Virus record (IMG/VR): IMGVR_UViG_3300035698_002797
Span: 1 to 37,844 of that record
DNA from: a virus
Direction: 5' to 3' (one strand)
Length of the DNA stretch: 37,844 nucleotides
Below the pieces are notes generated by a model, which was not told the origin of the DNA, ran no database searches, and saw only the letters and a program-made list of their open reading frames with translations. Shown in pieces: positions 448 through 37,844 of the stretch (its first letter is position 1; every line of letters starts with the position of its first letter). Position numbers and translations under genes: made by a program.

Positions 448-1642
448 TGGATTGGATTCACCCACCAAAAAAAAAGAGAGTTTTATTACATCTACTTGCA
501 TATTTAAAGATGTTGCTAAAAAGAAGCCAGCCAAAAAGAAAGCTACAGTAAAGAAAAAGCCTAACCCATCTCCTAAACCTATGGCTGGAAAAGATAGCTA
601 CGAAACTTCTGGGTACAGAGATTCGCAAGCTGCTCTAATGAAAAAAAAGAGGGCATCTGATAGGGACATAGGAGATTTGCCGGATTTAATAAATTTAGAG
701 CGTCGCAACTTTGCCCTTGAAAGCCTTGATAACTTCAAAGTAACCTACTTCCCTAATAAATTTTATAGAGAGGACTGCCCACCGTTAAAAAGATGTACTG
801 ATAAAATAGAATCAGTTATTACGGTTGGTGGTCAAGTTGCTATCGGGCTTCCTCGTGGCACAGGCAAAACAAGTAACCTTGAAGCAGGTACAACTTATTC
901 TATATGCTCTGGCAAGCGTAATTTTGTTGTTCTTATTGCCGACGAAACCGATTCCGCTGGGCGGTTACTTGAAAACATAAAATATGTTTTTGAAACAAAC
1001 GTTTTATTAGCAGAGGACTTTCCCGAAATTTGCTATCCTATAATAAAATTAGAGGGTATAACACATAGGGCAAAGGGGCAGCTTTATAAGGGCGAGCGAA
1101 CAAGGATAACGTGGAGCAATAAATACATACAATTTCCAAAGATAGATGGGAGTTCTGCCTCGGAGGCTATAATATATCCTTGCTCAATAGATAAGGTAAG
1201 GCGTGGTCTGCATTTTGAAAAAGCTGACGGTTCGGTAATGCGCCCAGACTTGGTACTAATTGACGATCCACAGAATGACGAATCGGCACGGTCAAGAGAT
1301 CAGACCAATAAGCGTGAGAAAACAATTTGCGGGACTATTGCAGGACTAGCAGGGCAAGACCAGCAAATAGCAATGTTGCTTGCATGTACAGTTATCTACG
1401 AGGACGACTTAGCTTATAAGATGTTATCTAGGGACATTCACCCAGAATGGCAGGGAGAGAAACACGCCTTAATTACAGAGTGGGCTGATGCTGATGCCAT
1501 GAAGTTGTGGGAAAACTATAGAGCTGTATTCCTTGATGAGATATCAACTCATGCCGAGCGAGGCGTAGAAGCTATGCGTCATCCTGAATCAAATAAATAT
1601 TATTCAGAAAACAAAAAGACATGGACTCCGGCTGTTCAGTAA
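437..1642 (+). CDS. Terminase large subunit, N-terminal ATPase part (frame-disrupted)
   Basis: This is the ATP-driven DNA packaging motor subunit. After a Lys-rich N-terminus (roughly residues 25-75) comes a Walker A motif, GLPRGTGKTS (about residue 135-145), and a Walker B, LVLIDDP (about 270-278), followed by the NDESARS segment typical of this TerL type. ATG 437 is preferred over TTG 431 because the GGAAAGGTG ribosome site ends 7 nt before it. The frame stops at TAA 1640-1642, but homology-like sequence carries on in the -1 frame from about 1615 (MDSGC... then AIQHAMN and EYQNEP). A missing base in the A run at 1613-1617 would restore it. This piece lacks the nuclease domain, which lies at 1800-2624. 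Confidence 0.85.
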   Translation: MLFDGLDSPTKKKESFITSTCIFKDVAKKKPAKKKATVKKKPNPSPKPMAGKDSYETSGYRDSQAALMKKKRASDRDIGDLPDLINLERRNFALESLDNFKVTYFPNKFYREDCPPLKRCTDKIESVITVGGQVAIGLPRGTGKTSNLEAGTTYSICSGKRNFVVLIADETDSAGRLLENIKYVFETNVLLAEDFPEICYPIIKLEGITHRAKGQLYKGERTRITWSNKYIQFPKIDGSSASEAIIYPCSIDKVRRGLHFEKADGSVMRPDLVLIDDPQNDESARSRDQTNKREKTICGTIAGLAGQDQQIAMLLACTVIYEDDLAYKMLSRDIHPEWQGEKHALITEWADADAMKLWENYRAVFLDEISTHAERGVEAMRHPESNKYYSENKKTWTPAVQ

Positions 1643-5223: not shown

Positions 5224-7179
5224 ATGGAACAGATTGAACTTAAAAACTTTTCACTTACCCCAAACATTGTAAGCATAGAAGCGGAGCAAAGCATAAAGAA
5301 TGGAAAAAACGCAAAGTTTTCTATATTAGCTTATAATGGTGGAGTGGTAAGCGTGGGGTGGTATGGTGATATAGTTATTGACCTTGCTGGTCTATCTATA
5401 GATAAACAGTCTATTCCTATCCTTAATAGCCACCGCAGGGAAATAGACGCAGTGCTAGGAAAAACGGATAGTGTAAGTATTGAAAGCGATGGAACTATAT
5501 TAGCCTCTGGTATACTGTATTCAAATACCGACGAAACGGCAAAAGGAATTGTAGCAAAGTCTAAAGATGGACACCCGTGGGAATCATCGGTCGGCATAGA
5601 GCCGTCCGTTATGGCAGAAATTTTAGCAGGTGAATCGGAAGTCATAAATGGCAAAGAGGTCAATGGCCCAGTTTATGTCGCAAGAAAATCAAAACTAAAA
5701 GAAATATCTATTGTTGTTCACGGCGCAGATTCAGAAACAGTCGTTGACATAGCAGCCAAAAAATTAACCAACATCATAGGAGATGATAAAATGGCTAAAG
5801 AAGAAAAAAAGGGTGCAAAAATCGAAGCATCTGAAAAAACACAAAAAGTGGAAACTCAAACAGCTCCGATTGAAGCAAAAAAAGTTGACGCTCCATCAAT
5901 AGACATGAGCGCAGTAAACGAAGCTCGTGCTATTAACATGGAACGCATCGGTGCAATCGAAGCACTTGAAGTTCCTGCCGCAATCAAAGCACAAGGAATT
6001 AAAGAAAACTGGTCAGTTGATAAAGTTGAACTTGCTGGATTTAGAGCTAATTTAGCTTCTGCTCCTGGTGTTATCGTGAAGAAACACGAAAACATGAACG
6101 CTAATATTCTTGAAGCGTCAATTTTGATGAAATCAGGATATTCAGTTCAAAAACTGGAAAAACGCCTTGATGCAAAAACTATCGACATGGCAGACGCTAA
6201 CCGTTCCGTATCTCTTAAAAGCTTAATTGCTATTTGTTGCGAAATGGAAGGTAAAACAATTCCGGCTATCCATGCAAGTCAAGACGCTTGGATTAACGCT
6301 GCATTTTCTACGACTTCTGTATCTGGTATTCTATCTAACGTTGCCAATAAAATGTTGGAAATGGGATTTGAAACTAGCGAAGACGCTGCTGCAATTATGA
6401 AAATTTGTAAAGAGCGTTCACTGAACGACCTGAAACAAAATACTATGTATCGCATGTTTACTGGCTCTAAACTTCCTGTTGTTCCAGGTGGTGGTCCATT
6501 GCAGTATGATACTCTTAGCGAAGGCTCGCAAACTATTCAGGCGCAAACTCACGGAAAGCTTATCGGCATAACTCGTGAAATGATTATCAATGATGATCTT
6601 GGCGCATTTACACAGATTGCAGAAAAAATGGGAATTGACGCATTTGAGCAGTTTGCTGATGACGGCGTTGCAATGATTGAAGATGCAACTATCTTTTCTT
6701 CTGGTAATGGAAACATTGATACTGGTTCAGAAACACCTGGTGTATATGGATATAACGCAATGAGATTGTTATTCTCTGCGTTTACTGAATCCCTCACATC
6801 TACAAAGTTGATTGGTGCAAAACCACAATCTGTTATTGTTCCGGCTGCTTTATTTACTAGCGCACAGAGCATGTTTGTTTCTCAAAACTTAATTGCAACA
6901 GGGGTTGGTTCTTCTGCGGCAACGATTGGAGAAGCTAATCCATTTGCTCGTAATTACGAAGTTATTGAAATCTCACGCTTATCATCTGCATCAACTTGGT
7001 ACGGACTTGCTAATCCAAACAGAATACCAGCATTTAATGTTGGATTCCTGAACGGTCGCAAATCTCCAGTTGTTGAAGAAGTGGCTGTTGCTCCAGAATT
7101 TTTGGGTAAAGCATGGCGCATAGTTTGGGATTATGGATTTGCAGAAGGCGACTATCAAGGCACAGTCCGCATGTCATAA
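5224..7179 (+). CDS. Prohead protease-major capsid protein fusion
   Basis: A 651-residue protein. Residues 1-185 resemble a phage prohead protease: a candidate catalytic His in LNSHRREIDAVLGK (about 73) and candidate Ser in PWESSVGIEP (about 121). These come before the LKEISIVVHGAD strand that ends such domains. Residues about 190-250 are charged, like a scaffold or delta domain. From about 330 to the end is an HK97-fold major capsid-like region (FTGSKLPVVPGG, GITREMIINDDLGAF, AWRIVWDYGFAEGD). An in-frame ATG at 5791 with its own AGGAG could make a 462-residue capsid/scaffold product lacking the protease, as nested genes do in lambda C/Nu3. Codon use in the capsid part is richer in CGT and GGT, fitting high expression. 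Confidence 0.88.
   Translation: MEQIELKNFSLTPNIVSIEAEQSIKNGKNAKFSILAYNGGVVSVGWYGDIVIDLAGLSIDKQSIPILNSHRREIDAVLGKTDSVSIESDGTILASGILYSNTDETAKGIVAKSKDGHPWESSVGIEPSVMAEILAGESEVINGKEVNGPVYVARKSKLKEISIVVHGADSETVVDIAAKKLTNIIGDDKMAKEEKKGAKIEASEKTQKVETQTAPIEAKKVDAPSIDMSAVNEARAINMERIGAIEALEVPAAIKAQGIKENWSVDKVELAGFRANLASAPGVIVKKHENMNANILEASILMKSGYSVQKLEKRLDAKTIDMADANRSVSLKSLIAICCEMEGKTIPAIHASQDAWINAAFSTTSVSGILSNVANKMLEMGFETSEDAAAIMKICKERSLNDLKQNTMYRMFTGSKLPVVPGGGPLQYDTLSEGSQTIQAQTHGKLIGITREMIINDDLGAFTQIAEKMGIDAFEQFADDGVAMIEDATIFSSGNGNIDTGSETPGVYGYNAMRLLFSAFTESLTSTKLIGAKPQSVIVPAALFTSAQSMFVSQNLIATGVGSSAATIGEANPFARNYEVIEISRLSSASTWYGLANPNRIPAFNVGFLNGRKSPVVEEVAVAPEFLGKAWRIVWDYGFAEGDYQGTVRMS
5778..5793 (+). 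promoter_or_regulatory. Internal ribosome binding site and start in the protease-capsid gene
   Basis: AGGAG (5778-5782), an 8-nt spacer and in-frame ATG (5791) lie exactly at the end of the protease domain. Spacing and sequence are as good as those of real starts in this phage. It would allow capsid to be made in excess over protease. Confidence 0.6.
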
Positions 7180-7211: not shown

Positions 7212-8162
7212 ATGTCTATTATTGCAACAAACAAACAAACAGGCGCAGACATGATACACTATACTCCGGTATCTGCTGTTACTGCTGGCGACATTGTAGT
7301 TGTCGGAAATGTTATCGGATACGCAACACAGGACATCGCCGCAGGAGCACTTGGTGCTATTGTGATTGACGGTGTTGCAAATGTTGTTAAACCTAATGAC
7401 GAAGCATGGACTTTGGGATTAAAAGTTTATTATGATAGTGTGGCTGGTAATTTTACAACCACCGCAACTAGTAATACTTTTGCTGGATTAACTGGTGTTG
7501 CCGCTGAAACAGCTACACTTGGCGATATTATCCTTAAGGGCGCAATGTTAAGCGACAGCACCGCACAAGAAGGCGCAGCGGTAGCTGATTTAACCGATAA
7601 TTCCGGTGGAGTTGATCCAGAAGATGATACTATTGCAGCTATAACGGTTAATGGCGACATTACCGACAGCTCTGGTGGAACTGATCCAGGAGATGACACT
7701 ATTGCAGTTGTTACTGTTAATGGTGCTATCACCGATAGTTCTGGCGGAACTGATCCAGGCGACGATACTATTGCAGTTGTTACAGTCAACAACGCTATCA
7801 CCGATAGTTCTGGCGGAACTGATCCAGGCGACGATACTATTGCGTCTATTACTAATGCGGCAAATGTCGGAAGTGCAGATGTTGCCCCTGTATCAGCGGC
7901 TATCGCTCAATTGGCGGCAAAACAGAATGTTGATACAACCGCAATAGTTTCTGCAAAAGCGGCTATCGCACAGCTAGCGGCTAAACAGAATGTTGATACA
8001 ACCGCTTTGGTTGCTGTAACGGCGGCTATCGCACAATTAGCGGCTAAACAGAATGTTGATAATGCGGCGATTACTGCATTAATGGCGGCTGTAGCTCAGT
8101 TGACAGCAAAGCAAAGTGAGTTACTTGCATCTCTTGAAGGCGCTAACCTGATTGCTACTTAA
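7212..8162 (+). CDS. Capsid decoration-like protein (DUF2190-like) with tandem repeats
   Basis: A 316-residue protein. Residues 1-120 resemble the DUF2190 family of phage capsid decoration or head-fibre proteins: TAGDIVVVGNVIGYA, an Ala/Gly-rich barrel, and LGLKVYYDSVAGNFTTT. Two repeat blocks follow. The first is four 23-residue units (xTDSSGGTDPGDDTIAxVTV, residues about 127-218). The second is four 21-residue Ala/Gln units (AAIAQLAAKQNVD, residues about 229-312) predicted to be a coiled coil. An N-terminal capsid-binding domain plus a stalk and coiled-coil trimer fits a head fibre. It directly follows the capsid gene, with a good AAGGAG site. Attachment and trimerisation are inferred. Confidence 0.75.
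   Translation: MSIIATNKQTGADMIHYTPVSAVTAGDIVVVGNVIGYATQDIAAGALGAIVIDGVANVVKPNDEAWTLGLKVYYDSVAGNFTTTATSNTFAGLTGVAAETATLGDIILKGAMLSDSTAQEGAAVADLTDNSGGVDPEDDTIAAITVNGDITDSSGGTDPGDDTIAVVTVNGAITDSSGGTDPGDDTIAVVTVNNAITDSSGGTDPGDDTIASITNAANVGSADVAPVSAAIAQLAAKQNVDTTAIVSAKAAIAQLAAKQNVDTTALVAVTAAIAQLAAKQNVDNAAITALMAAVAQLTAKQSELLASLEGANLIAT
7590..7865 (+). repeat. Four 69-bp in-frame tandem repeats
   Basis: Units at 7590-7658, 7659-7727, 7728-7796 and 7797-7865 each encode 23 residues with the core TDSSGGTDPGDDTIA. Units 2 to 4 are nearly identical in DNA. Unit 1 has diverged, and unit 4 changes near its end. Confidence 0.9.
7896..8147 (+). repeat. Four 63-bp in-frame tandem repeats
   Basis: Units at 7896, 7959, 8022 and 8085 each encode 21 residues with the core AAIAQLAAKQNVD. 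They have heptad-like spacing of Ala/Ile/Leu. The last unit is the most diverged (AAVAQLTAKQSEL). Confidence 0.9.
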
Positions 8163-20908: not shown

Positions 20909-21169
20909 ATGAGTGGAACAAAAGGAAATATAAGAATAAAAAAAGAAAAAAAACAAGCAGAAATAGAAAAACAGAAAAAGCTCTATGACAATCGTGGTGA
21001 TATTTTACAGATTACCATAAACGAACTCATCTCATTATATGGAGAAGAAAACGTAAATCATAAACACCCGTTGTTTAATGCAATACAAAATAGTGCAGAT
21101 GGGGAGTTTATTGATTTAACCGTGCTTGCAAGTAGAATAGACAAATTTAAGGAGGCTTATAATGTTTAG
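20909..21169 (+). CDS. Small charged helical protein
   Basis: An 86-residue protein. The first 30 residues are strongly Lys/Glu-rich (RIKKEKKQAEIEKQKKLYDN) and helical, followed by an alpha/beta part (ITINELISLYGEENVN). It overlaps the adhesin gene start by 8 nt. It could be an adhesin assembly partner, but no family was recognised. Confidence 0.5.
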   Translation: MSGTKGNIRIKKEKKQAEIEKQKKLYDNRGDILQITINELISLYGEENVNHKHPLFNAIQNSADGEFIDLTVLASRIDKFKEAYNV

Positions 21170-22034
21170 GGTATTCTCTGATAGAGATAGTTTTGGGCGA
21201 ATGAATAGGTATAGAACCGCATTAGAAATAGTTGCATTTTCAGCAACGGGCGGAACCATAACAACATCTGGAGATTACACAATACACACATTTACGACAG
21301 GCGGAACGTTTACCCCCAACATAAGCGGCTCAGTTGAAATTCTTGTTGTTGCTGGTGGCGGTGGCGGTGGCTCTGATGTTGGTGGTGGCGGTGGTGGTGG
21401 TGGACTTATCTATAAAACAAGCCATGATGTTTTAGCTCAGGGATATGGAGTTACAATCGGCGCCGGAGGTTCTGGCGGCGAGGGGACATATAACACCGTT
21501 ACAAATTCTGGAGATGGTGGAAGCTCAGTGTTTGACACCTTAACTGCTTATGGTGGCGGTGGTGGCGGAGGGAGAAGCACAATATATAGAGATGGGCATG
21601 ATGGTGGGTCTGGTGGCGGAGCTTCACACGCCGCAGGACTTGGAACTCCTGGAGATGCAGATTATATAACGCCAAGACAAGGATACGATGGAGGAGATGG
21701 AATAGAAGCCCCAATAGGCTCTGGTGGCGGAGGTGGTGGAAGCTCAGAAGTTGGAAGTAATGGGGCTGGTGAAACAGGCGGAGCCGGAGGAGATGGCACG
21801 GCTTATAATATATCAGGAAGCTCTGTTTATTATGCTGGTGGCGGTGGTGGAAGTGGAACAACCGCCGCAAGTGGCGGTCTCGGAGGAGGAGGAGCCGGAG
21901 GTGGCGGTGGGGCTGGTGGAAACCCAGGAACTTCAAACACAGGCGGAGGTGGTGGCGGTGGTTATTATAATATTGACGCTAGTGGCAGCGCACCTGGTGG
22001 GTCTGGCGTGGTAATAATAAGATATTTAACATAA
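21162..22034 (+). CDS. Glycine-rich tail adhesin
   Basis: A 290-residue protein. After about 45 residues with the motif YTIHTFTTGGTFTPN, typical of phage Gly-rich proteins, come many runs such as VVAGGGGGGSD and GGGGGGGG, broken by short variable stretches. It ends in a conserved-looking GSGVVIIRYLT. Such proteins form polyglycine-II sandwich tips, as known for S16 gp38-type adhesins, where the variable loops bind the receptor. Here it follows the fibre gene, as adhesins do. The resemblance to gp38 is by composition and position only. Confidence 0.7.
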   Translation: MFRVFSDRDSFGRMNRYRTALEIVAFSATGGTITTSGDYTIHTFTTGGTFTPNISGSVEILVVAGGGGGGSDVGGGGGGGGLIYKTSHDVLAQGYGVTIGAGGSGGEGTYNTVTNSGDGGSSVFDTLTAYGGGGGGGRSTIYRDGHDGGSGGGASHAAGLGTPGDADYITPRQGYDGGDGIEAPIGSGGGGGGSSEVGSNGAGETGGAGGDGTAYNISGSSVYYAGGGGGSGTTAASGGLGGGGAGGGGGAGGNPGTSNTGGGGGGGYYNIDASGSAPGGSGVVIIRYLT

Positions 22035-26175: not shown

Positions 26176-26198
26176 CTTAGCCTCCTTAGCTTTCTTCT

Positions 26199-26226
26199 AG
26201 TATACACGCTTAATCCTGTTTGTCAA
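26199..26226 (-). promoter_or_regulatory. Early promoter P3 (minus strand)
   Basis: TTGACA (26226-26221), 16-nt spacer, TATACT (26204-26199). It has the upstream TTTTAGTC and the downstream leader AAGCTAAGGAGGCT shared with the promoters at 33764-33792 and 36841-36869. Confidence 0.85.
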
Positions 26227-30973: not shown

Positions 30974-31037
30974 AAAAAAAGCGGTGTCCATTTCGTAGTA
31001 AAGGAGGAGGCTTTAAAATGAAAGGTGGAGCACCGCC
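30974..31037 (-). ncRNA. Candidate ~64-nt hairpin RNA with an anti-Shine-Dalgarno loop
   Basis: On the minus strand GCGGTGCTCCA (31036-31026) pairs with TGGACACCGC (30990-30981), with one bulged base, and TTTTTTT follows at 30980-30974. The 35-nt loop contains TAAAGCCTCCTCCTTT. A promoter ends 7 nt upstream, so the whole transcript would be this hairpin. The loop is complementary to 8-11 nt of the early leaders (AGGAGGCTTTA and relatives). If upstream transcripts read in, the same structure acts as a terminator. No expression data. Confidence 0.5.
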
Positions 31038-31047
31038 TAAAGTATTA
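31018..31047 (+). CDS. Possible 9-codon ORF on the complementary strand of the hairpin
   Basis: On the plus strand AAGGAGGAGG (31001-31010) lies 7 nt before ATG 31018, which reads KGGAPPKVL and then stops. No plus-strand promoter was seen. It looks like an inverted copy of an early-gene leader rather than a working gene. Confidence 0.2.
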
Positions 31048-31071
31048 TAACCCTCGTTTGCTGTTTGTTAA
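31044..31071 (-). promoter_or_regulatory. Promoter of the hairpin RNA (minus strand)
   Basis: TTAACA (31071-31066), 16-nt spacer, perfect TATAAT (31049-31044). The predicted start at about 31037 is the first base of the hairpin. It lies right after the stop of the gene at 31075. Confidence 0.6.
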
Positions 31072-31074
31072 GCC

Positions 31075-31248
31075 CTATTCTTCTTCTTTTTTGAATTTAT
31101 ATATATGCCATACTAGTTCTTCGCTTTCTGTCATTATTGTATCTAGATACTCTAGCGTGTTTATTGTTTCTGATATTCCCCACCCTAGAGCCTTCCTTAT
31201 TCTCTTTTCTTGGGCTTCGGTTATCGTTTTGACTTCTTCGGATTTCAT
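31075..31248 (-). CDS. Small 57-residue hypothetical protein
   Basis: ATG 31248 with the AAAGGCTAACAAATG start region. An acidic/helical peptide (KSEEVKTITEAQEKRIRKA) ending in a run of Glu. It follows the SSB-like gene in the early operon. Confidence 0.55.
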   Translation of the reverse strand: MKSEEVKTITEAQEKRIRKALGWGISETINTLEYLDTIMTESEELVWHIYKFKKEEE

Positions 31249-31276
31249 TTGTTAGCCTTTCTTGATTGAGTTTTGA

Positions 31277-31591
31277 TTAAAATGGAATATTTGGCTGATC
31301 GTTATCTATTGTTGTATTAGTGTCATTCGTCATAGCTGGATAACCACTAGGTGCTTGACCGCCTTGCTGTTGAGGTTCTTGCTGTTTTGGTTTCCAAGTG
31401 TCTAGTTTGCCGTACATTTTGCCGGATTGTTGACTCTTAGCTACAATAGCATTTACCCAGCCATTGTCATTGTGCTTTTGTAAAAACTGTATGAACTCAT
31501 CTACTTTAAACGATAGCTTTGTTATAGTACCGCCGTCTTGGAACTTGTGCTCTTTGCAAATCATTCCATCTGTGAAAATTACGTCTGCCAT
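31277..31591 (-). CDS. Single-strand DNA-binding-like protein
   Basis: A 104-residue protein. The N-terminal 65 residues are an OB-fold-sized beta domain (ADVIFTDGMICKEHKFQDGG, FIQFLQKHN, WVNAIVAKS). A Gln/Gly/Pro-rich linker follows, ending in an acidic-hydrophobic tip, DNDQPNIPF. A disordered linker with a DDxIPF-like tip is the hallmark of SSB proteins, which recruit partners. Location beside the Rad52-like annealase supports a recombination/replication role. The OB-fold itself is inferred. Confidence 0.6.
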   Translation of the reverse strand: MADVIFTDGMICKEHKFQDGGTITKLSFKVDEFIQFLQKHNDNGWVNAIVAKSQQSGKMYGKLDTWKPKQQEPQQQGGQAPSGYPAMTNDTNTTIDNDQPNIPF

Positions 31592-31607
31592 TATTCTACT
31601 CCTTTAT

Positions 31608-32036
31608 TTATTCTGGGTCTGGTAAATGACAATCGAATTTGTCAATACTCAGCTTATCCAAAAAGTTAATATAATTTATCATTTGTTCAATGTCTGAATT
31701 TTCCTTGTAAAACTTTTCTATTCCTTGGTTTATGCAAAATAAACGTTTAAAAAATAAGTCCGCTGTATATTTATTGCCTTTTACCTCTATTGTTTCGCTT
31801 CCAGTTTTAATCTCAAATAAAAACCCCTGTGTATCATCATACCATGCTATTAAATGCGGATAAACTACCCCGTATAAGTATTTTAGTTGCTCCCATGTTT
31901 TATACTTCTTAGGCTCAGAGAAAACCCCTAATCTCCAGCCGTCCTCTTTTACTTCATCTTGCAACTTGTCAAACTCGTCGTAAGCAGGGCGCAAAAGACC
32001 GTTTTTCTTATGGAACATTATTGATTGTTTTTTCAT
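31608..32036 (-). CDS. Recombination-associated protein, NinB-like (weak)
   Basis: A 142-residue protein next to Rad52-like and SSB-like genes. It has YDEFDKLQDEV, KTWEQLKYLYGVVYPHLIAWY and a C-terminus with NYINFLDKLSIDKFDCHLPDPE. The size, helical content and neighbours are like NinB/Orf proteins, which load recombinases on SSB-coated DNA. Only a general resemblance was seen. Overlaps the Rad52-like gene by ATGA. Confidence 0.4.
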   Translation of the reverse strand: MKKQSIMFHKKNGLLRPAYDEFDKLQDEVKEDGWRLGVFSEPKKYKTWEQLKYLYGVVYPHLIAWYDDTQGFLFEIKTGSETIEVKGNKYTADLFFKRLFCINQGIEKFYKENSDIEQMINYINFLDKLSIDKFDCHLPDPE

Positions 32037-32806
32037 GCCAACCTCGGCAACGGCTTGTCTATTCCATTAACGTCATTATCTTCAATCCATTGTATGCACT
32101 TGTTGTATTCAGATTTTTTAATCATGCTTGCCTCTTGTGCCTTGAACAAATCTTTAAATACCTGAATTGACACGCCGGAGGTAATCAAAAAGCCTCTTAT
32201 TTGTTTTTGCAGTTCAAGGTTTATGAATATATTATCGTCCTCGTGCATAGCCCACGCTTCAAGCTCTGGCACTTCCCAGAAGAAATTTAATCCTCCATGC
32301 TTTGCTGATGTTTTCGCAGATTTCCAACCAGCTTTTTTTCTGTAAGCCTTTTCCATGCTACATTGAACAAAACGCTCTTTTAAGTTATAAAGATAGCGAC
32401 CTATTCCCCATTGAACGGCAGCACGCTTCATTGATCCAGATATTCCACCCTTAAAACTTGCTATGTCTGTATTTTCTGCTCCGTCCCACTTAGTTATCCA
32501 TTCACCGTTTATATTGATTGATATTCCACACATGGAACCGCCGTCAAGGTTTACAAATTCATTACGCCAGTTTTCAATGCCTACAATTTCATCAAGTCGC
32601 TCTTGTATTGCTCGGCTTGTAACATATACCAAAGCCATAGCCCATATACCATTGTCGTTTTTGCCGGACATTTGCAAACGCCATTCAAGGTCATCTTTTC
32701 TAAATGGCTCACTTAGTTTATTCCGCAAGCTTTTTACAGAGTCGCTTTTCTCAATAGCTGTAAAAGATAAATCGCTTAAGCTATTATTTACTGTTATGTT
32801 TGGCAT
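32033..32806 (-). CDS. Rad52/Rad22-like single-strand annealing protein
   Basis: A 257-residue annealase expected to pair complementary single strands. The block LSEPFRKDDLEWRLQMSG is followed by MALVYVTSRAIQERLDEIVG, ENWRNEF, then TDIASFKGGISGSMKRAAVQWGIGRYLYNL. This last stretch is the conserved Rad52 beta-beta-alpha core with the KRAAxxxGIGRYLY motif. The C-terminal 100 residues are variable and helical. AAGGAG lies 8 nt upstream. It forms an operon with the SSB-like and NinB-like genes. Confidence 0.85.
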   Translation of the reverse strand: MPNITVNNSLSDLSFTAIEKSDSVKSLRNKLSEPFRKDDLEWRLQMSGKNDNGIWAMALVYVTSRAIQERLDEIVGIENWRNEFVNLDGGSMCGISININGEWITKWDGAENTDIASFKGGISGSMKRAAVQWGIGRYLYNLKERFVQCSMEKAYRKKAGWKSAKTSAKHGGLNFFWEVPELEAWAMHEDDNIFINLELQKQIRGFLITSGVSIQVFKDLFKAQEASMIKKSEYNKCIQWIEDNDVNGIDKPLPRLA

Positions 32807-32828
32807 ATTAAACTCCTTTGTTGTTATG

Positions 32829-33446
32829 CTATTTAAAATACGCTATAAACTTATCACTTCCGTATTGACCTTTTATTATGCTCAGTACTTTGTCAAGTGG
32901 CAATTCATCTTTAGTTATGTTGTTTTGTTTCTTAAACTGATCATCCCCAAAAGAACAAGCTCCTGTAATCAATCTGTATTGGTTTTTACTAACCGAGCCA
33001 GTTGATTTTATCTCACTTATTAATTTAAACACATCAAAAGTTTCTTGGAGATATTTAAAATTAACATCTTCAACAGCTTGTTTGATTGTTTTGCCGTGTG
33101 CATAATATTTCCCACGTTTAGCGATGCAACACTTTTCCAAGTTTTTTATTTCACCACCGCCAAAATAGCAAGCTTTATAAATTGTAAAGTCGCCCTTTTG
33201 TTTTTCAGAGTGAATTAACATAGTTGAGTTGTCTATATTAATTAATATTATTTCTTCACCTTTGTAAATTATGGTCATATTCGGCAAGTATACATTACCT
33301 TGATTCTCAAACTTGACGCCCTCTGGTAATGTCGTTAGGCTTTCCAAGTATACACCACCTTGATGATTTACGATTATTTGGTTTTTGGTTTTTCTAAAAG
33401 CATAACCGATTTCTCTTAATACTGCAATAAATTTTTTGTCTTTCAT
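32829..33446 (-). CDS. Modular protein with LT.LPEG repeat and HGKT domain (DUF7666-like)
   Basis: A 205-residue protein. ATG 33446 is preferred over an upstream TTG because AAGGAG lies 9 nt before it. Residues about 25-60 hold a repeat-like stretch, GGVYLESLTTLPEGVKFENQ, resembling the LTSIPEGF repeats of phage proteins. Residues about 108-135 include CIAKRGKYYAHGKTIKQAVED, recalled as the core of DUF7666-type phage domains. The end carries SKNQYRLITGACSFGDDQF. The domain names are from memory and unchecked. It lies upstream of the Rad52-like gene. Function unknown. Confidence 0.5.
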   Translation of the reverse strand: MKDKKFIAVLREIGYAFRKTKNQIIVNHQGGVYLESLTTLPEGVKFENQGNVYLPNMTIIYKGEEIILINIDNSTMLIHSEKQKGDFTIYKACYFGGGEIKNLEKCCIAKRGKYYAHGKTIKQAVEDVNFKYLQETFDVFKLISEIKSTGSVSKNQYRLITGACSFGDDQFKKQNNITKDELPLDKVLSIIKGQYGSDKFIAYFK

Positions 33447-33450
33447 AATC

Positions 33451-33531
33451 CTACTCCTTAGCTTTTTTAGTTTTCTTTCTTTCGTCAAAGTCTTTTTTCA
33501 TAGCCTCTGTTAAGTCTGTAAATAAGCTCAT
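33451..33531 (-). CDS. Possible 26-residue peptide
   Basis: ATG 33531 with AGGGG 7 nt upstream codes SLFTDLTEAMKKDFDERK followed by a Lys-rich end. The stop lies 4 bases before the next start, and the site GCTAAGGAGTAGGATTATG is shared. Very small and basic. Confidence 0.5.
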   Translation of the reverse strand: MSLFTDLTEAMKKDFDERKKTKKAKE

Positions 33532-33542
33532 TTTAATCCCCT

Positions 33543-33734
33543 TTAAATTGGTTCTGATTCACAGTAAGCGCCACACTCTGCACATCGACCAGTGCCGACA
33601 TTAACGCCTTGACGTTCTAGTTCAACAGTACAACCGCATTCAGAACATTTCATTTGGTCTGGGTATTCACATTCTGAAACTTCGTCTGGCATTGCGTTGT
33701 CGTGCTTCCATTGTGCATTAGAAAAGTTACTCAT
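33543..33734 (-). CDS. Small zinc-ribbon protein, first gene of its operon
   Basis: A 63-residue protein: acidic N-terminus (SNAQWKHDNAMPDEVSECEY), then MKCSECGCTVELER and GRCAECGAYC, a two-CxxC zinc ribbon like transcription-factor or RNA-polymerase knuckles. It is the first gene behind promoter P2 and carries the leader GCTAAGGAGGCTTAATAATG. A role as an early regulator is an inference from position and motif. Confidence 0.65.
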   Translation of the reverse strand: MSNFSNAQWKHDNAMPDEVSECEYPDQMKCSECGCTVELERQGVNVGTGRCAECGAYCESEPI

Positions 33735-33763
33735 TATTAAGCCTCCTTAGCTTTGTTACTTAT

Positions 33764-33792
33764 AGTATACTGCACAAAACGGGCTTTGTCAA
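33764..33792 (-). promoter_or_regulatory. Early promoter P2 (minus strand)
   Basis: TTGACA (33792-33787), 17-nt spacer, TATACT (33769-33764). It has the same TTTTAGTC upstream and AAGCTAAGGAGGCT downstream boxes as P1 and P3. Confidence 0.85.
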
Positions 33793-33815
33793 GACTAAAA
33801 GGTAAATTTTATTGA

Positions 33816-34088
33816 TTATTTTTCAAGTATTTTCTTAAGCTTTTTAATAGTGCCGTACTTGTCTTTTTTCATGTCGTTCCAGAGGTAGATAATTGCAACC
33901 CTGATAAATCCATCTTCGCTAATCTTACACCATGAATTAACCGCCTTAAAGACTGCCAGTATTTTATTACAGAAAGAAGGAGTCCTGCCGGATCGCATTT
34001 TCATTCCTTTTTCTTTTGACCGCTGGCTTGCCTCTGCCAACTCGTTTAACAGCTCGTCGCTGAACATTGCTCTAGTTTCTTTAGTCAT
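33816..34088 (-). CDS. Small hypothetical protein
   Basis: A 90-residue basic helical protein (LNELAEASQRSKEKG, WCKISEDGFIRVAIIYLWNDM). No family was recognised, but the length and Lys-rich ends suit DNA or RNA binding. It overlaps the upstream small gene. It ends 24 bases before promoter P2. Confidence 0.5.
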   Translation of the reverse strand: MTKETRAMFSDELLNELAEASQRSKEKGMKMRSGRTPSFCNKILAVFKAVNSWCKISEDGFIRVAIIYLWNDMKKDKYGTIKKLKKILEK

Positions 34089-34206
34089 TGCCTACCCCTT
34101 TTTTGTTTTGTAGTTTTCTGCGCTCTTTGATTATTTTTCTAAGCTCTTTATAAAGCTCGATTTCTCTTTTTAGTAGAGCTAATATTCTATCTTGTGTTTT
34201 GCTCAC
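34081..34206 (-). CDS. Small 41-residue coiled-coil protein
   Basis: GTG start at 34206 inside the stop of the previous gene (GTGA), with GAGGTG upstream. Reads SKTQDRILALLKREIELYKE and then basic residues: an amphipathic helix. It overlaps the next gene by 8 nt. Confidence 0.55.
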   Translation of the reverse strand: MSKTQDRILALLKREIELYKELRKIIKERRKLQNKKGVGND

Positions 34207-34385
34207 CTTGACACCTCTAAGCCGTCTATCCAGCTTCCGTCTACGTTCATTACGCCGTGTATTATGTTGTCGTTTATTTGTAATTGTTTTCCGGCGTTAA
34301 ATTCGTTCTCGTTTTCAGACCGCTTTAAATATAGAAATCCAGCGAGTAAAAGTATTATCAGTATGTAAATCATTGTGTCTTTCAT
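34203..34385 (-). CDS. Small single-TM protein
   Basis: A 60-residue protein with MIYILIILLLAGFLYL as one N-terminal TM helix or signal anchor, followed by a polar domain (KRSENENEFNAGKQ). Its ATG overlaps the stop of the previous gene (ATGA). A possible membrane-located early protein (exclusion or host-takeover), not established. Confidence 0.55.
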   Translation of the reverse strand: MKDTMIYILIILLLAGFLYLKRSENENEFNAGKQLQINDNIIHGVMNVDGSWIDGLEVSR

Positions 34386-34516
34386 TTTTCGTTATCCTTT
34401 TTAATTTTGTTTCTGTCCTTATCAGACATAATGTTTAGCTTTAGTTTCTTGAACGGCTTGTAGCTTGAGCCGTAATTACTGCTTACTTTTTGTGTGGTGT
34501 TGGTTATTTTTGGCAT
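34382..34516 (-). CDS. Small 44-residue basic protein
   Basis: ATG 34516 codes PKITNTTQKVSSNYGSSYKP and a Lys-rich tail, ending in the ATGA shared with the TM protein. Starts within the end of the preceding gene, whose frame stops at 34504. Confidence 0.5.
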   Translation of the reverse strand: MPKITNTTQKVSSNYGSSYKPFKKLKLNIMSDKDRNKIKKDNEK

Positions 34517-34764
34517 TGTTCAACACCTAGTTCTTTTTTTAATTTATTATACAGCCTCCACTTTTCTGCTAGTGTTTCTTTATCTTCGTACCATTTATCA
34601 ATAATATCCTTTTTTGTACTTGTCTCTAGTACACAAACTCTGATACTATTAAAAGTAAAAGATACGGGGGCGTGTGTTTTACTGGATAGCTCCAAGGCGT
34701 CTTGCGTTGTGCATTCAATGCTATCGCCAGCATAAGCAATTATTATTGTTTCTTTTATTTTCAT
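34504..34764 (-). CDS. Small hypothetical protein
   Basis: An 86-residue alpha/beta protein (KETIIIAYAGDSIECTTQDA, APVSFTFNSIRVCVLETS) with a Lys/Glu-rich C-terminus. AATAAGGAGTAGGATTATG precedes it, a start region shared with other early genes. No family was recognised. Confidence 0.5.
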   Translation of the reverse strand: MKIKETIIIAYAGDSIECTTQDALELSSKTHAPVSFTFNSIRVCVLETSTKKDIIDKWYEDKETLAEKWRLYNKLKKELGVEQCQK

Positions 34765-34775
34765 AATCCTACTCC

Positions 34776-35234
34776 TTATTTTATTTTTACAATCAACGGC
34801 TCTTGACCTTTATACGAAAAGCAAAGGCTTTCTGCGTCGCTGGTTAGGTTGGTGAAGTTGAAAGTCATGCCATCACGATATTCGCCAAAATTAAACAATA
34901 GAACACAATAATTTTCTTTTTGTTCTATAATTATAGTTTCAGCAAATTCTATAAATATTTTTTTCCAGCGATGGGAATACTTAACACCTGCCCGATCCAG
35001 AACCTTGCACGCTTGGCTTATTGATATACTCATTAGTAGCCCCTTTGGTGGAAACATTACTATAACAAAAACCAAAATAAACACAACACCTAGCAATAGA
35101 TATGACAGTAAATGCAGGCACGATATAGTATTTGTATATAGCTCTGGTTGTCCATGTTTTATAATACAAAATAATATATTAATTATAAATAAATATAAGA
35201 GGAGTATATTGTTTACTTTATATAGCAACATCAT
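34776..35234 (-). CDS. Two-TM membrane protein with soluble tail
   Basis: A 152-residue protein. Two hydrophobic helices (residues about 8-25, LLLYLFIINILFCIIK, and about 40-62, LLSYLLLGVVFILVFVIV), then a beta-rich soluble domain (YSHRWKKIFIEFAETIIIEQ, NYCVLLFNFGEYR). GGAGGCTACCAAATG precedes. The topology suggests an inner-membrane early protein. Function not recognised. Confidence 0.55.
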   Translation of the reverse strand: MMLLYKVNNILLLYLFIINILFCIIKHGQPELYTNTISCLHLLSYLLLGVVFILVFVIVMFPPKGLLMSISISQACKVLDRAGVKYSHRWKKIFIEFAETIIIEQKENYCVLLFNFGEYRDGMTFNFTNLTSDAESLCFSYKGQEPLIVKIK

Positions 35235-35596
35235 TTGGTAGCCTCCAGTTCGGTTAGGTTTTCTATAAATCTTTCATAAAGCTTAACTTCTAGTGAGTTG
35301 CGCCTAATTTCTGCATTTATAACATCTACATAAAACGGCTTTTCTGTACGTTCTATTTCTTTAAAGTGTATTTGGTCGTTGCACTCTATAATTGCATCTT
35401 CATACTTCTCAATAAGCTCCTTAATCTTATCCGCTTTAACTAATCCACGGTAGTAATCTTCTGACACTATGCGAAAGTCAACGCTAGAAGTATAGCCGTT
35501 TATCAGCACCCTTTGGTCGCCAGCCTTTAGCAAAACAGGTTCTTTCTTTTTGATGTTCATTCCGTAGTCCCTCAAGTCGCTTGTGGTCTGTTTCAT
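35231..35596 (-). CDS. Hypothetical helical protein
   Basis: A 121-residue protein. The middle (LVKADKIKELIEKYEDAIIE) and C-terminus (RNSLEVKLYERFIENLTELE) are long helices. No cysteines or TM segments. It overlaps the next gene's start by 4 nt. Role unknown. Confidence 0.5.
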   Translation of the reverse strand: MKQTTSDLRDYGMNIKKKEPVLLKAGDQRVLINGYTSSVDFRIVSEDYYRGLVKADKIKELIEKYEDAIIECNDQIHFKEIERTEKPFYVDVINAEIRRNSLEVKLYERFIENLTELEATK

Positions 35597-35597
35597 T

Positions 35598-35729
35598 TTA
35601 CTTTTCTCCTGTTATTATTTCTACAAACTCAAGCCCTATTTTTTCGGCTTGTTTGATTTGACGTGATAAATCCTTTTCCGTAGTTTTCATCTTTACATAT
35701 ACTTCTTTGCTTTTGTATGTTGCTGTCAT
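35598..35729 (-). CDS. Small 43-residue basic protein
   Basis: ATG 35729 with AAGGA 9 nt upstream. Codes TATYKSKEVYVKMKTTEKDL and an amphipathic helix. Stop followed by the next start within 2 nt. Confidence 0.55.
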   Translation of the reverse strand: MTATYKSKEVYVKMKTTEKDLSRQIKQAEKIGLEFVEIITGEK

Positions 35730-35733
35730 TTGA

Positions 35734-35898
35734 TTAGTCCTTTTCGGTTAGTATTGTAATTAGTATATCTATATGATTTTCAAACGCAGTATTAAAATTT
35801 TCATCGTATAATGTTTGAACAAAAATAGATATTGGTGATATTGCAATAAACATAAATGCTGCGATACATCTAAAAGGTATTGAGATTAAATAAATCAT
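35734..35898 (-). CDS. Small one-TM protein
   Basis: A 54-residue protein: IYLISIPFRCIAAFMFIAIS plus PISIFVQ form one long hydrophobic segment, then an acidic C-terminal stretch. ATG 35898 overlaps the stop of the preceding membrane peptide (ATGA). An upstream ATG at 35949 is in the overlapping gene and is not preferred. Confidence 0.55.
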   Translation of the reverse strand: MIYLISIPFRCIAAFMFIAISPISIFVQTLYDENFNTAFENHIDILITILTEKD

Positions 35899-36002
35899 TT
35901 TAAAACCCTCTTTAATATTGAAGTTATAGCGATCCCTGACGGCACACAAATTAAAGCTAGGTATACAGCAGGGTTTGATAGTAAAAGTGTTAGCGTTTGC
36001 AT
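35895..36002 (-). CDS. Small 35-residue membrane peptide
   Basis: ATG 36002 with GGAGG 6 nt upstream. QTLTLLLSNPAVYLALICVP is one TM helix, with a basic tail (LKRVLK). Ends with ATGA overlap to the next TM gene, so the two are made together, possibly a pair. Confidence 0.55.
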   Translation of the reverse strand: MQTLTLLLSNPAVYLALICVPSGIAITSILKRVLK

Positions 36003-36015
36003 TTAGACCTCCAGT

Positions 36016-36183
36016 TTATGTAGTTGCTGTATATTTATGAGCTTTAGTTATTTCATTTTTTAACTTGCGTAAACATTTATCACATAAGTGCGTATTGCTA
36101 TTGTTTATATGTATTTTTCTTGACGGCTTTGTATTGCAATTAAAGCAATGACAATCATAAGTATTATTCCCGACTTTAATCAT
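36016..36183 (-). CDS. Small 55-residue zinc-ribbon protein
   Basis: ATG 36183, GGAG 9 nt upstream. TYDCHCFNCNTKPSRK followed by HLCDKCLRKL makes two Cys/His pairs (CHC.NC and CDKC). The tail is basic. It overlaps the upstream gene's stop. Confidence 0.6.
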   Translation of the reverse strand: MIKVGNNTYDCHCFNCNTKPSRKIHINNSNTHLCDKCLRKLKNEITKAHKYTATT

Positions 36184-36532
36184 TTTTTAATCTCCGCTTG
36201 CTTAGTATTGGCGTAGAATGATTAACAAAGCCTACAATAATATCTTTATAATAATGATTGTCGTCTGCAATATTAACACCATTTCTTCTTGCTGGTGTAC
36301 CATCTGTTTTTAAGACAATCCCATGATAATACATTAGTCTAGTACTATCAAAACAAATCATTGTTATTTTTGTGTTTTTAATGCAATCACTAGCAAACAT
36401 TTTCACCTTAACAATATCACCTAATTTATATTTAGTGTGTTTTTCTGCATATTCCTGTTCTAGTTTTCTTTTTTTGATTTGCAACTCCATTATATCGCAA
36501 TCTAAACTAGTAATCTTTTGTAATAAGTTCAT
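36176..36532 (-). CDS. Hypothetical protein with coiled-coil head
   Basis: A 118-residue protein. The first 35 residues form a coiled coil (DIMELQIKKRKLEQEYAEKH). The rest is a beta domain, like an SH3/KOW fold (YKLGDIVKVKMFASD, YYHGIVLKTDG). No family was recognised. Overlaps the zinc-ribbon gene. Confidence 0.5.
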   Translation of the reverse strand: MNLLQKITSLDCDIMELQIKKRKLEQEYAEKHTKYKLGDIVKVKMFASDCIKNTKITMICFDSTRLMYYHGIVLKTDGTPARRNGVNIADDNHYYKDIIVGFVNHSTPILSKRRLKND

Positions 36533-36576
36533 TGTATTCCCTCCAGCAGTTTAAACTTGCTTAGGTTGGTTGGTTA

Positions 36577-36810
36577 TTAAATATCACACGGTATAATATA
36601 ACCGCCTTTAGATAAACATATTTGATGAAGTGCGTTATTTATTTCAATCCAGTACAAATGAATTATATAGTTTTTTGAGTTAATATCATTATTATATTTC
36701 TTTTTTTGTAATTTAAATACCTCTTGGGTTGTTTCTATTTCGTTTATTATAACTTTAACCGATTCACCTACTTTTAATGATTCATATTCTTTATTGCTAT
36801 AACGTTTCAT
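36577..36810 (-). CDS. First gene of the early operon, small beta protein
   Basis: A 77-residue protein with SH3-like beta character (LKVGESVKVIINEIETTQEV). The leader GCTAAGGAGGCTTTACATG follows promoter P1. Eleven bases (AGGAGGCTTTA) of the leader are perfectly complementary to the hairpin RNA loop at 31005-31015. Function not recognised. Confidence 0.6.
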   Translation of the reverse strand: MKRYSNKEYESLKVGESVKVIINEIETTQEVFKLQKKKYNNDINSKNYIIHLYWIEINNALHQICLSKGGYIIPCDI

Positions 36811-36840
36811 GTAAAGCCTCCTTAGCTTGTTGTTATCTAT

Positions 36841-36869
36841 ATAATACTACACGAAAAGCAGTTTGTCAA
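36841..36869 (-). promoter_or_regulatory. Early promoter P1 (minus strand)
   Basis: TTGACA (36869-36864), 17-nt spacer, TATTAT (36846-36841). Upstream GTTTAGTC and downstream AAGCTAAGGAGGCT boxes match P2 and P3. Confidence 0.85.
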
Positions 36870-36959
36870 GACTAAACTAGAAAAAAAGCGGGATTTTTTA
36901 GACATTTGTTAAGTTTAACCTCAAAATAAGATTAATTCAAACTATTTTCGATTAAGGGG
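36870..36959. other. Intergenic control region between divergent promoters
   Basis: Ninety bases between P1 and the plus-strand promoter at 36960. It holds a 12-bp palindrome GTTAAGTTTAAC (36908-36919) and an A/T-rich stretch. No reading frame of note. The palindrome is a candidate operator. No repressor gene is seen in this window. Confidence 0.4.
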
Positions 36960-36988
36960 TTGACAAATCTCTAAACTAATAGTATTAT
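36960..36988 (+). promoter_or_regulatory. Promoter of the ~85-nt RNA (plus strand)
   Basis: TTGACA (36960-36965), 17-nt spacer, TATTAT (36983-36988). The predicted start is about 36995. Confidence 0.75.
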
Positions 36989-36994
36989 ATTAGT

Positions 36995-37079
36995 ATGCTA
37001 GGAGGCTTAATATAATATATTTTATCTTAATCTCTCGCACAAATAAATAACTCAAATTATTTATTTGTGCATTTTTTTT
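36995..37079 (+). ncRNA. Candidate ~85-nt RNA with a Shine-Dalgarno box but no standard start codon
   Basis: The transcript from the promoter at 36960 carries CTAGGAGGCTTAAT (36998-37011), the same box found in the early leaders. In place of ATG it reads ATAATATAT, and no ATG, GTG or TTG lies before the terminator. It ends at a 14-bp hairpin plus T8. It could be a decoy for ribosomes or for the anti-Shine-Dalgarno hairpin RNA. Inference only. Confidence 0.55.
37037..37079 (+). terminator. Strong intrinsic terminator of the ~85-nt RNA
   Basis: Perfect 14-bp stem GCACAAATAAATAA/TTATTTATTTGTGC (37037-37050, 37057-37070) with a 6-nt loop and TTTTTTTT at 37072-37079. Confidence 0.9.
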
Positions 37080-37128: not shown

Positions 37129-37137
37129 TATAATATC

Positions 37138-37225
37138 AACTAGAAAGAGTTTATTAATTAAACCAGCCCCAGATTGGATAAGAACTTGCCTAACAGCTCT
37201 TTTTTAGTTGAACCATGACGGGGCT
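37138..37225 (+). promoter_or_regulatory. Leader with possible H-type pseudoknot
   Basis: AACTAGAAAGAG (37138-37149) pairs with CTCTTTTTTAGTT (37197-37209), with a small internal bulge, and AGCCCC (37165-37170) in its loop pairs with GGGGCT (37220-37225). GGGGCT is followed by TTTATTTT and AGGAGG (37236-37240 region), so the structure sits next to the start at 37248 and could control termination or translation. Confidence 0.4.
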
Positions 37226-37247
37226 TTTATTTTCAGGAGGTCATAAC

Positions 37248-37655: not shown

Positions 37656-37844
37656 AGAAAACACTTTTACTGTTGGCTCTGGCTCTGGCTATGGCGATGG
37701 CTATGGCGATGGCGATGGCTATGGCTATGGCGATGGCTATGGCGATGGCTCTGGCTCTGGCTATGGCGATGGCTCTGGCTATGGCGATGGCTCTGGCTCT
37801 GGCTATGGCTCTGGCTATGGCTATGGCGATGGCTCTGGCTATGG
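37642..37844 (+). CDS. Gene with (Gly-Ser/Tyr/Asp)n tandem repeat, partial at window end
   Basis: The gene starts at ATG 37642 (GGAG 10 nt upstream), with a short head MNKIKENTFTV and then at least 28 dipeptides of Gly followed by Ser, Tyr or Asp. Glycine is always GGC, the partner always TCT, TAT or GAT. The frame runs off the window. Genes of this composition in phages, as I recall, continue into a small folded domain after the repeat; that part is not seen here. Low-complexity, possibly flexible or phase-separating. Function unknown. Confidence 0.6.
   Translation, partial: MNKIKENTFTVGSGSGYGDGYGDGDGYGYGDGYGDGSGSGYGDGSGYGDGSGSGYGSGYGYGDGSGY
37675..37844 (+). repeat. Hexanucleotide-type tandem repeat GGC(TCT/TAT/GAT)
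   Basis: A 170-bp run with period 6, reading GGC plus one of three codons that differ by single base changes. The array extends to the last base of the window, which may mark an assembly break in a low-complexity tract. Confidence 0.95.

Follow-up and report, generated by a model that had tools for sequence, protein, structure and literature searches.

The window analysed here, the entire IMG/VR record IMGVR_UViG_3300035698_002797 (37,844 bases), comes from a tailed phage and appears to encode on its minus strand a 64-nt hairpin RNA (RNA1, positions 30974-31037), which is probably a trans-acting antisense small RNA (sRNA) occluding the Shine-Dalgarno sequence (SD) of several early leaders. 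From the computed elements, their homology and synteny in a related contig (L008, IMGVR_UViG_3300005910_000083) and the co-variation of loop and leader box, we infer its transcription, binding, repression and timing. Phage antisense RNAs acting on one phage mRNA are already known (c4, sar and OOP); the unusual feature here is that a single RNA would serve a box common to several early leaders and that loop and box change together.

RNA1 is preceded by the promoter TTAACA-16-TATAAT (31044-31071, minus strand), which agrees with the consensus at 11 of 12 positions, and ends in a T-run terminator. Its terminator hairpin folds at -18.7 kcal/mol (z -5.4, 0/200 shuffles) and consists of a GC-rich outer stem followed by TTTTTTT, the large loop enclosing a short inner hairpin, UAAAG-CCUCCUC-CUUUA. 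This inner mini-hairpin presents the anti-SD sequence unpaired: the CCUCC of the loop is predicted to be unpaired with a probability of ~1.0, and the accessible loop reads AAAGCCUCCUCCUUUA (also given as AGCCUCCU). The complement of the leader box, AAGCCUCCU, was placed at 31005-31013 (minus strand) by the 9-mer match and by the binding model described below. RNA1 thus has one feature expected of an antisense RNA acting in trans at the SD, an unpaired loop complementary to the SD of its proposed targets.

The 9-mer AGGAGGCTT occurs five times in the window against 0.19 expected, a count reached in none of 100 shuffles. Two copies are the SDs at 36822-36814 and 33747-33739 (both minus), each immediately following one of the strongest promoters of that strand (36869 and 33792). 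The others are the SD of gene 21162 (plus), a second non-coding transcript (RNA2, discussed below) and, as complement, RNA1. The box is the SD cassette of all three strong minus-strand promoters, those of genes 36810, 33734 and 26175. The first promoter identified by promoter scoring (TTGACA-17-TATTAT, 36841-36869, minus) is followed by box GCUAAGGAGGCUU at 36814-36826, the SD of gene 36810-36577, with an 11-bp fit to RNA1 when the following UA is included. The second (TTGACA-17-TATACT, 33764-33792, minus; likewise from promoter scoring) has the same box at 33739-33751, supported by the match and the binding model, as the SD of gene 33734-33543; this gene encodes a zinc-ribbon-like protein, whose L008 homologue sits behind the same promoter. 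The third (TTGACA-16-TATACT, 26199-26226, minus) lies downstream of the helicase-primase gene, has a syntenic counterpart in L008 at 9643, and is followed by GCTAAGGAGGCT; here a near copy of the 9-mer, AGGAGGCT, serves gene 26175-26005 within box GCUAAGGAGGCU (26179-26190, minus; 8-bp fit to RNA1). A possible fourth RNA1 target is the box copy at 21150-21158 (plus), the SD of gene 21162-22034, which encodes a glycine-rich protein. Six promoters matching at 11 of 12 positions are found between 22.8 and 37.8 kb: three lead into boxed leaders, two into RNA1 and RNA2, and one (37100, plus) into a DUF6948 gene. Upstream of the -35 box all three boxed promoters carry TTTTAGTC or TTTAGTC; since they have more in common than the box alone, promoter and leader form a dispersed cassette.

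Binding was modelled by combining accessibility (opening costs) with duplex energy; RNAcofold was considered but not relied on, because loop-to-strand pairing cannot form in it. Among 59 start regions of the window, RNA1 ranked gene 36810 first (-9.8 kcal/mol), followed by 21162 (-7.4), 33734 (-7.1) and 26175 (-6.6), so that the three promoter-leader genes take ranks 1, 3 and 4.

Support for specific pairing comes from L008, whose helicase-primase is 76% identical to that of the window and which has in common with it the gene order zinc-ribbon, g31608 homologue, SSB, HNH and helicase. In the same place as the window, between SSB and HNH, L008 contains TTGACA-17-TATTAT and a hairpin RNA (6024-6095) ending in TTTTT, with a fold of -21.2 kcal/mol (z -5.6). 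Its alignment with RNA1 scores 19, against -7.0 +/- 6.3 for shuffles, none of 2000 of which scored as high. CTCCTCC follows the -10 box by 35 nt in L008 and 34 nt in the window, and the outer stem differs in sequence from that of RNA1 with pairing retained. Promoters 2 and 3 of the window have positional counterparts in the L008 early promoters at 123 and 9643. The box of the L008 leaders is a different one, GCUGGAGGGCUU, and the loop of the L008 RNA, CUCCUCCAGCUUGA, makes a 10-bp fit to leader 194 (own loop/leader pair CCUCCAGCUU/AAGCUGGAGG, 10 bp).

Perfect matches including CTCC extend over 11, 9 and 8 bp between the window RNA and window leaders and over 10, 7 and 8 bp within L008, compared with 4-5 bp in the crosses. 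When the loops were shuffled around a fixed CTCCTCC, these fits gave P values of 0.0018 and 0.0023, and the difference between own and cross fits was reached in 0 of 20000 shuffles. The modelled energies follow the same pattern: the L008 RNA ranks its own leaders 194, 4422 and 9704 at the top of 16 (-10.8, -10.2 and -9.8 kcal/mol) and gives the promoter leaders of the window only -3.2 to -3.8 kcal/mol. Complementarity between loop and box has been kept by change on both sides, as seen in two loci only, the window and L008. The first-pass annotation had proposed that the hairpin RNA binds the early leaders, and this part of its proposal now gains independent support at the sequence level from a syntenic homologue whose different loop fits its own, different leader box.

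The comparison with L008 also bears on two other readings of RNA1. It might be a general anti-SD RNA, a mimic of the 16S tail that damps translation of many host and phage mRNAs; many SDs do fit RNA1 by 5 bp, and its loop contains CCUCCUUUA, which resembles the anti-SD tail of 16S rRNA. However, the L008 homologue keeps CCUCC and not the 16S-like UUUA, having instead AGCUU, which fits its own leader, and we regard such a general role as unlikely. A cis-acting attenuator of the genes downstream (30882 onward) would account for the order of promoter, long-loop terminator and gene, and a similar leader, at 37130-37240, precedes the DUF6948 gene. Yet the gene after the L008 RNA encodes a helix-turn-helix regulator and that after RNA1 a non-homologous 68-aa protein, while both phages retain the hairpin and its match to leaders far away, which makes attenuation in cis doubtful.

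Several points weigh against the antisense reading. Leader 4978 of L008 fits by 7 bp only, the RNA is carried by only two loci, and the leader matches of a given phage are not independent of each other, all its leaders being copies of a single cassette. Some binding to strong SDs is to be expected of any CCUCC loop. The L008 RNA also has a chance fit of -12.0 kcal/mol to 36532, an unrelated gene of the window, which shows that single matches of such strength are not rare. The weight of the case for specificity lies in the pattern across both phages and not in single matches.

On the antisense reading, RNA1 would be transcribed from its own sigma-70-type promoter and end at its own hairpin. The accessible CCUCC loop would then pair over 8-11 bp with the SD box GCUAAGGAGGCUU, repeated directly behind the strong early promoters, and block 30S binding at the boxed SDs. 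Blocked initiation would lower translation of the genes just behind the early promoters, and early protein synthesis could be switched off. TTTAGTC, found in the early cassette, is missing from the RNA1 promoter, as is the early TAGTATTGACAAAT from that of the L008 RNA; for this reason the timing of RNA1 may differ from that of the early genes. The leader boxes at 36814-36828 and 33739-33753 of the window and 177-190 of L008 can each fold into a small hairpin whose loop holds the SD (AAGC-UAAGGAG-GCUU; AAGC-UGGAGG-GCUU), and the contact with the sRNA could therefore be of the kissing-loop type. A more speculative extension, to which we give little credence, is that the sRNA and the SD box behind every early promoter form a self/non-self code: same-type early leaders would be silenced by the RNA of a resident or co-infecting genome and a relative's different box spared, giving superinfection immunity across the early regulon with RNA2 as a decoy switch. 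If the antisense reading is true, a single RNA tuned to the SD box that all early promoter leaders share, its loop co-varying with that box between related phages, would constitute an RNA-level regulon in an uncultured phage, and RNA1 would offer a candidate, open to direct testing, for early shut-off or immunity based on RNA.

Among known phage RNAs, c4 targets a single mRNA (ant), is located in the immI operon and is represented in Rfam by a C4 family, while sar is an antisense RNA from within the ant region. The c4 RNA of phages P1 and P7 is a trans antisense RNA of ~77 nt with its complementary bases in loops; it pairs around the ribosome-binding site, for which a translation block has been proposed, and P1 and P7 differ (heteroimmunity) (PMC12197685). 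Like c4, RNA1 is phage-encoded and probably trans-antisense, with complementary bases in a loop and a ribosome-binding site as proposed target. Unlike c4, RNA1 fits a box repeated behind three early promoters and has a promoter of its own and no Rfam match: no family reached threshold across the whole window, nor up to E=10 around RNA1, and the L008 RNA gave chance-level matches only. RNA1 does not belong to the c4 type, having neither the Rfam-family match nor an antirepressor (ant) target; its best-fitting genes, 36810, 33734 and 26175, have no antirepressor match in Pfam or PHROGs. Phage P22 makes a 68/69-nt RNA, sar, which pairs with a phage mRNA and so prevents its translation from being initiated (PMC12197685), and RNA1 is likewise a short phage RNA proposed to pair at the translation start of phage mRNAs. 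The only target of sar is ant, whereas several targets fit RNA1, at distances of kilobases.

The first-pass annotation had joined RNA1 and RNA2 in a circuit in which RNA2 soaks up RNA1 and so releases early translation. RNA2 (36995-37079, plus) looks like a genuine short transcription unit, a predicted non-coding transcript of ~85 nt whose 5' end is leader-like and whose terminator hairpin has 14 bp (37037-37070; z -6.0, 0/200 shuffles), behind a promoter matching at 11 of 12 positions (TTGACA-17-TATTAT, 36960-36988, plus). The perfect 9-base complementarity on which the circuit was built was confirmed: AGGAGGCTT (= AGGAGGCUU) at 37000-37008 (plus), 5 nt inside a transcript that would begin near 36995, matches AAGCCTCCT at 31013-31005 (minus), and both RNAs have independent promoters and terminators. 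The annotation also placed the two RNAs at opposite ends of the early operon, which is wrong, as RNA1 lies 5.8 kb into the minus-strand cluster.

Known sponge RNAs of phages and prophages include AgvB, which mimics GcvB targets, and SprY, which sponges RNAIII (PMC12197685). As a decoy with a target mimic RNA2 would resemble them; their targets are host sRNAs, whereas that of RNA2 would be an sRNA of the phage itself, and the mimic in RNA2 is predicted to lie buried. The 9-mer lies in a 5' hairpin in which GGAGG is predicted to be 81-100% paired, with UCUCU as partner, although this hairpin alone is not significant (155 of 1000 shuffles fold as well). The modelled contact of RNA1 with RNA2 amounts to -5.0 kcal/mol, against -6.6 to -9.8 kcal/mol for the leaders, every boxed leader being stronger. 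By these predictions RNA2 lacks the accessible target mimic, with an affinity at least that of the real targets, that a sponge should have. The match also stops at the leader core: it is the leader's own 9-nt core, with one A fewer than in the leaders, and RNA2 matches RNA1 because it carries a leader copy. No conserved counterpart of RNA2 was found among the relatives. The L008 contig starts downstream of its place, and L026, the only relative with the corresponding junction, has a DUF6948 protein 80% identical to that of the window and the same divergent early-promoter junction with nothing between its two promoters; both RNAs are absent from L026, so presence or absence does not separate the hypotheses. 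We consider the sponge half of the circuit improbable; RNA2 is a weak decoy at best.

Most likely, RNA2 is one more copy of the early promoter-leader cassette, closed by a terminator; its promoter and 5' end resemble that cassette (TAGTATTATAT...GCTAGGAGGCTTAATA) with the terminator in place of an open reading frame. In phage lambda, the pR'-tR' leader RNA is short and untranslated and runs from a strong promoter to a terminator, a layout that RNA2 shares. RNA2 could possibly be such an abortive leader of a rightward plus-strand unit (toward DUF6948, perhaps the late genes), read through only with antitermination. The strong plus-strand promoter, the strong terminator within 85 nt, the absence of an open reading frame and the further plus-strand promoter and gene that follow agree with this; against it, no antiterminator gene (Q-like or other) was identified, L026 does without the RNA2 promoter, and the genome order is visible only up to 37844. 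A leader remnant or an abortive leader of the pR'-tR' type explains RNA2 at least as well as a sponge does.

Further carriers of RNA1 were sought in 1.8 Mb of phage DNA, on both strands, by requiring a promoter with at least 10 of 12 matches and a long-loop terminator with an anti-SD loop. RNA1 and the L008 RNA alone combine an 11/12 promoter, a stem of at least 8 pairs and an anti-SD loop, and one weaker match was found in L015. At the SSB-HNH place, no RNA is found in L026 (where the gap is 15 bp) or in L010/L009, and these relatives have no repeated boxed leaders either, which agrees with regulator and targets being gained or lost together, in a tiny sample. Searches with the helicase and HNH proteins returned no relatives beyond L008, L009/L010 and L026. 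Searching IMG/VR for exact copies of a 16-mer from the RNA1 loop gave 15 matches, all unrelated. Combining the promoter with GCTAAGGAGGCT retrieved L029 and L030, both without an anti-box RNA; with GCTGGAGGGCT, 16 further contigs were retrieved, and the 17 records searched showed no anti-box RNA following a strong promoter. A leader search of genome contigs yielded two Erysipelotrichia loci with the box behind an inverted repeat, presumably CIRCE, and these are irrelevant here.

The structural pattern of promoter plus CTCCTCC occurred at 120 loci or more, and among the matches listed, which are dominated by a conserved element unrelated to RNA1, only L008 passed the hairpin filter. This element stands directly behind a consensus promoter in roughly 60 of the 120 contigs listed (L067-L182; e.g. 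L068:4949, L077:4355, L103:3039, L081:728), with the layout TTGACA...TATAAT-N6-8-GWAGACGTGAGTGKAAC-TTGGTAWACCTCCTCC-hairpin-GGAGGG. The copies in L103 and L081 have no Rfam match, one copy was called an odd tRNA (anticodon tggg) by ARAGORN, and the element looks like an undescribed tRNA-like or structured phage RNA. Over a dozen contigs (L031-L046) have a perfect promoter, TTGACA-17-TATAAT, then AATTAAAGCTGGAGGGCTAA and ATG, before different genes; no anti-box RNA was found in them. In L026 (777-877, minus) the promoter-like TTAACA-17-TATATT precedes a 60-nt multi-hairpin RNA with a T-run (-22.2 kcal/mol), which is not a tRNA by ARAGORN.

The plus strand of the window carries the structural genes (terminase, portal, capsid/protease and tape measure), and the minus-strand cluster running from 36810 to 23199 encodes small proteins without assigned function, a Rad52-type protein, HNH and methyltransferase proteins and a primase/helicase, with RNA1 separating the recombination/SSB-position genes from the HNH/helicase genes. 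A DNA similarity search found no close relative among sequenced phages, where the best protein matches are below 60% identity, and no integrase was seen among the proteins tested, a subset of the total. The protein after the capsid gene carries internal repeats, DSSGGTDPGDDTIA (7600-7870). The leader of the DUF6948 gene (37129-37240, plus) contains a long-loop terminator, AGCCCC...GGGGCU-UUUAUUUU, with an overlapping alternative pairing, AACUAGAAAGAG / CUCUUUUUUAGUU, in an attenuator-like arrangement; its L026 homologue has a hairpin of different sequence, GUACGAU...AUCGUAC, with a T-run in the same place (~2010-1925, minus). Adjoining DUF6948, a long in-frame repeat of Gly-Ser/Tyr/Asp-Gly codons (GSGYGDG) occupies 37663-37844 and is cut by the end of the window, and the same pair of DUF6948 and GSGYGDG repeat gene is present in L026, with the repeat at 1257-1500 (minus).

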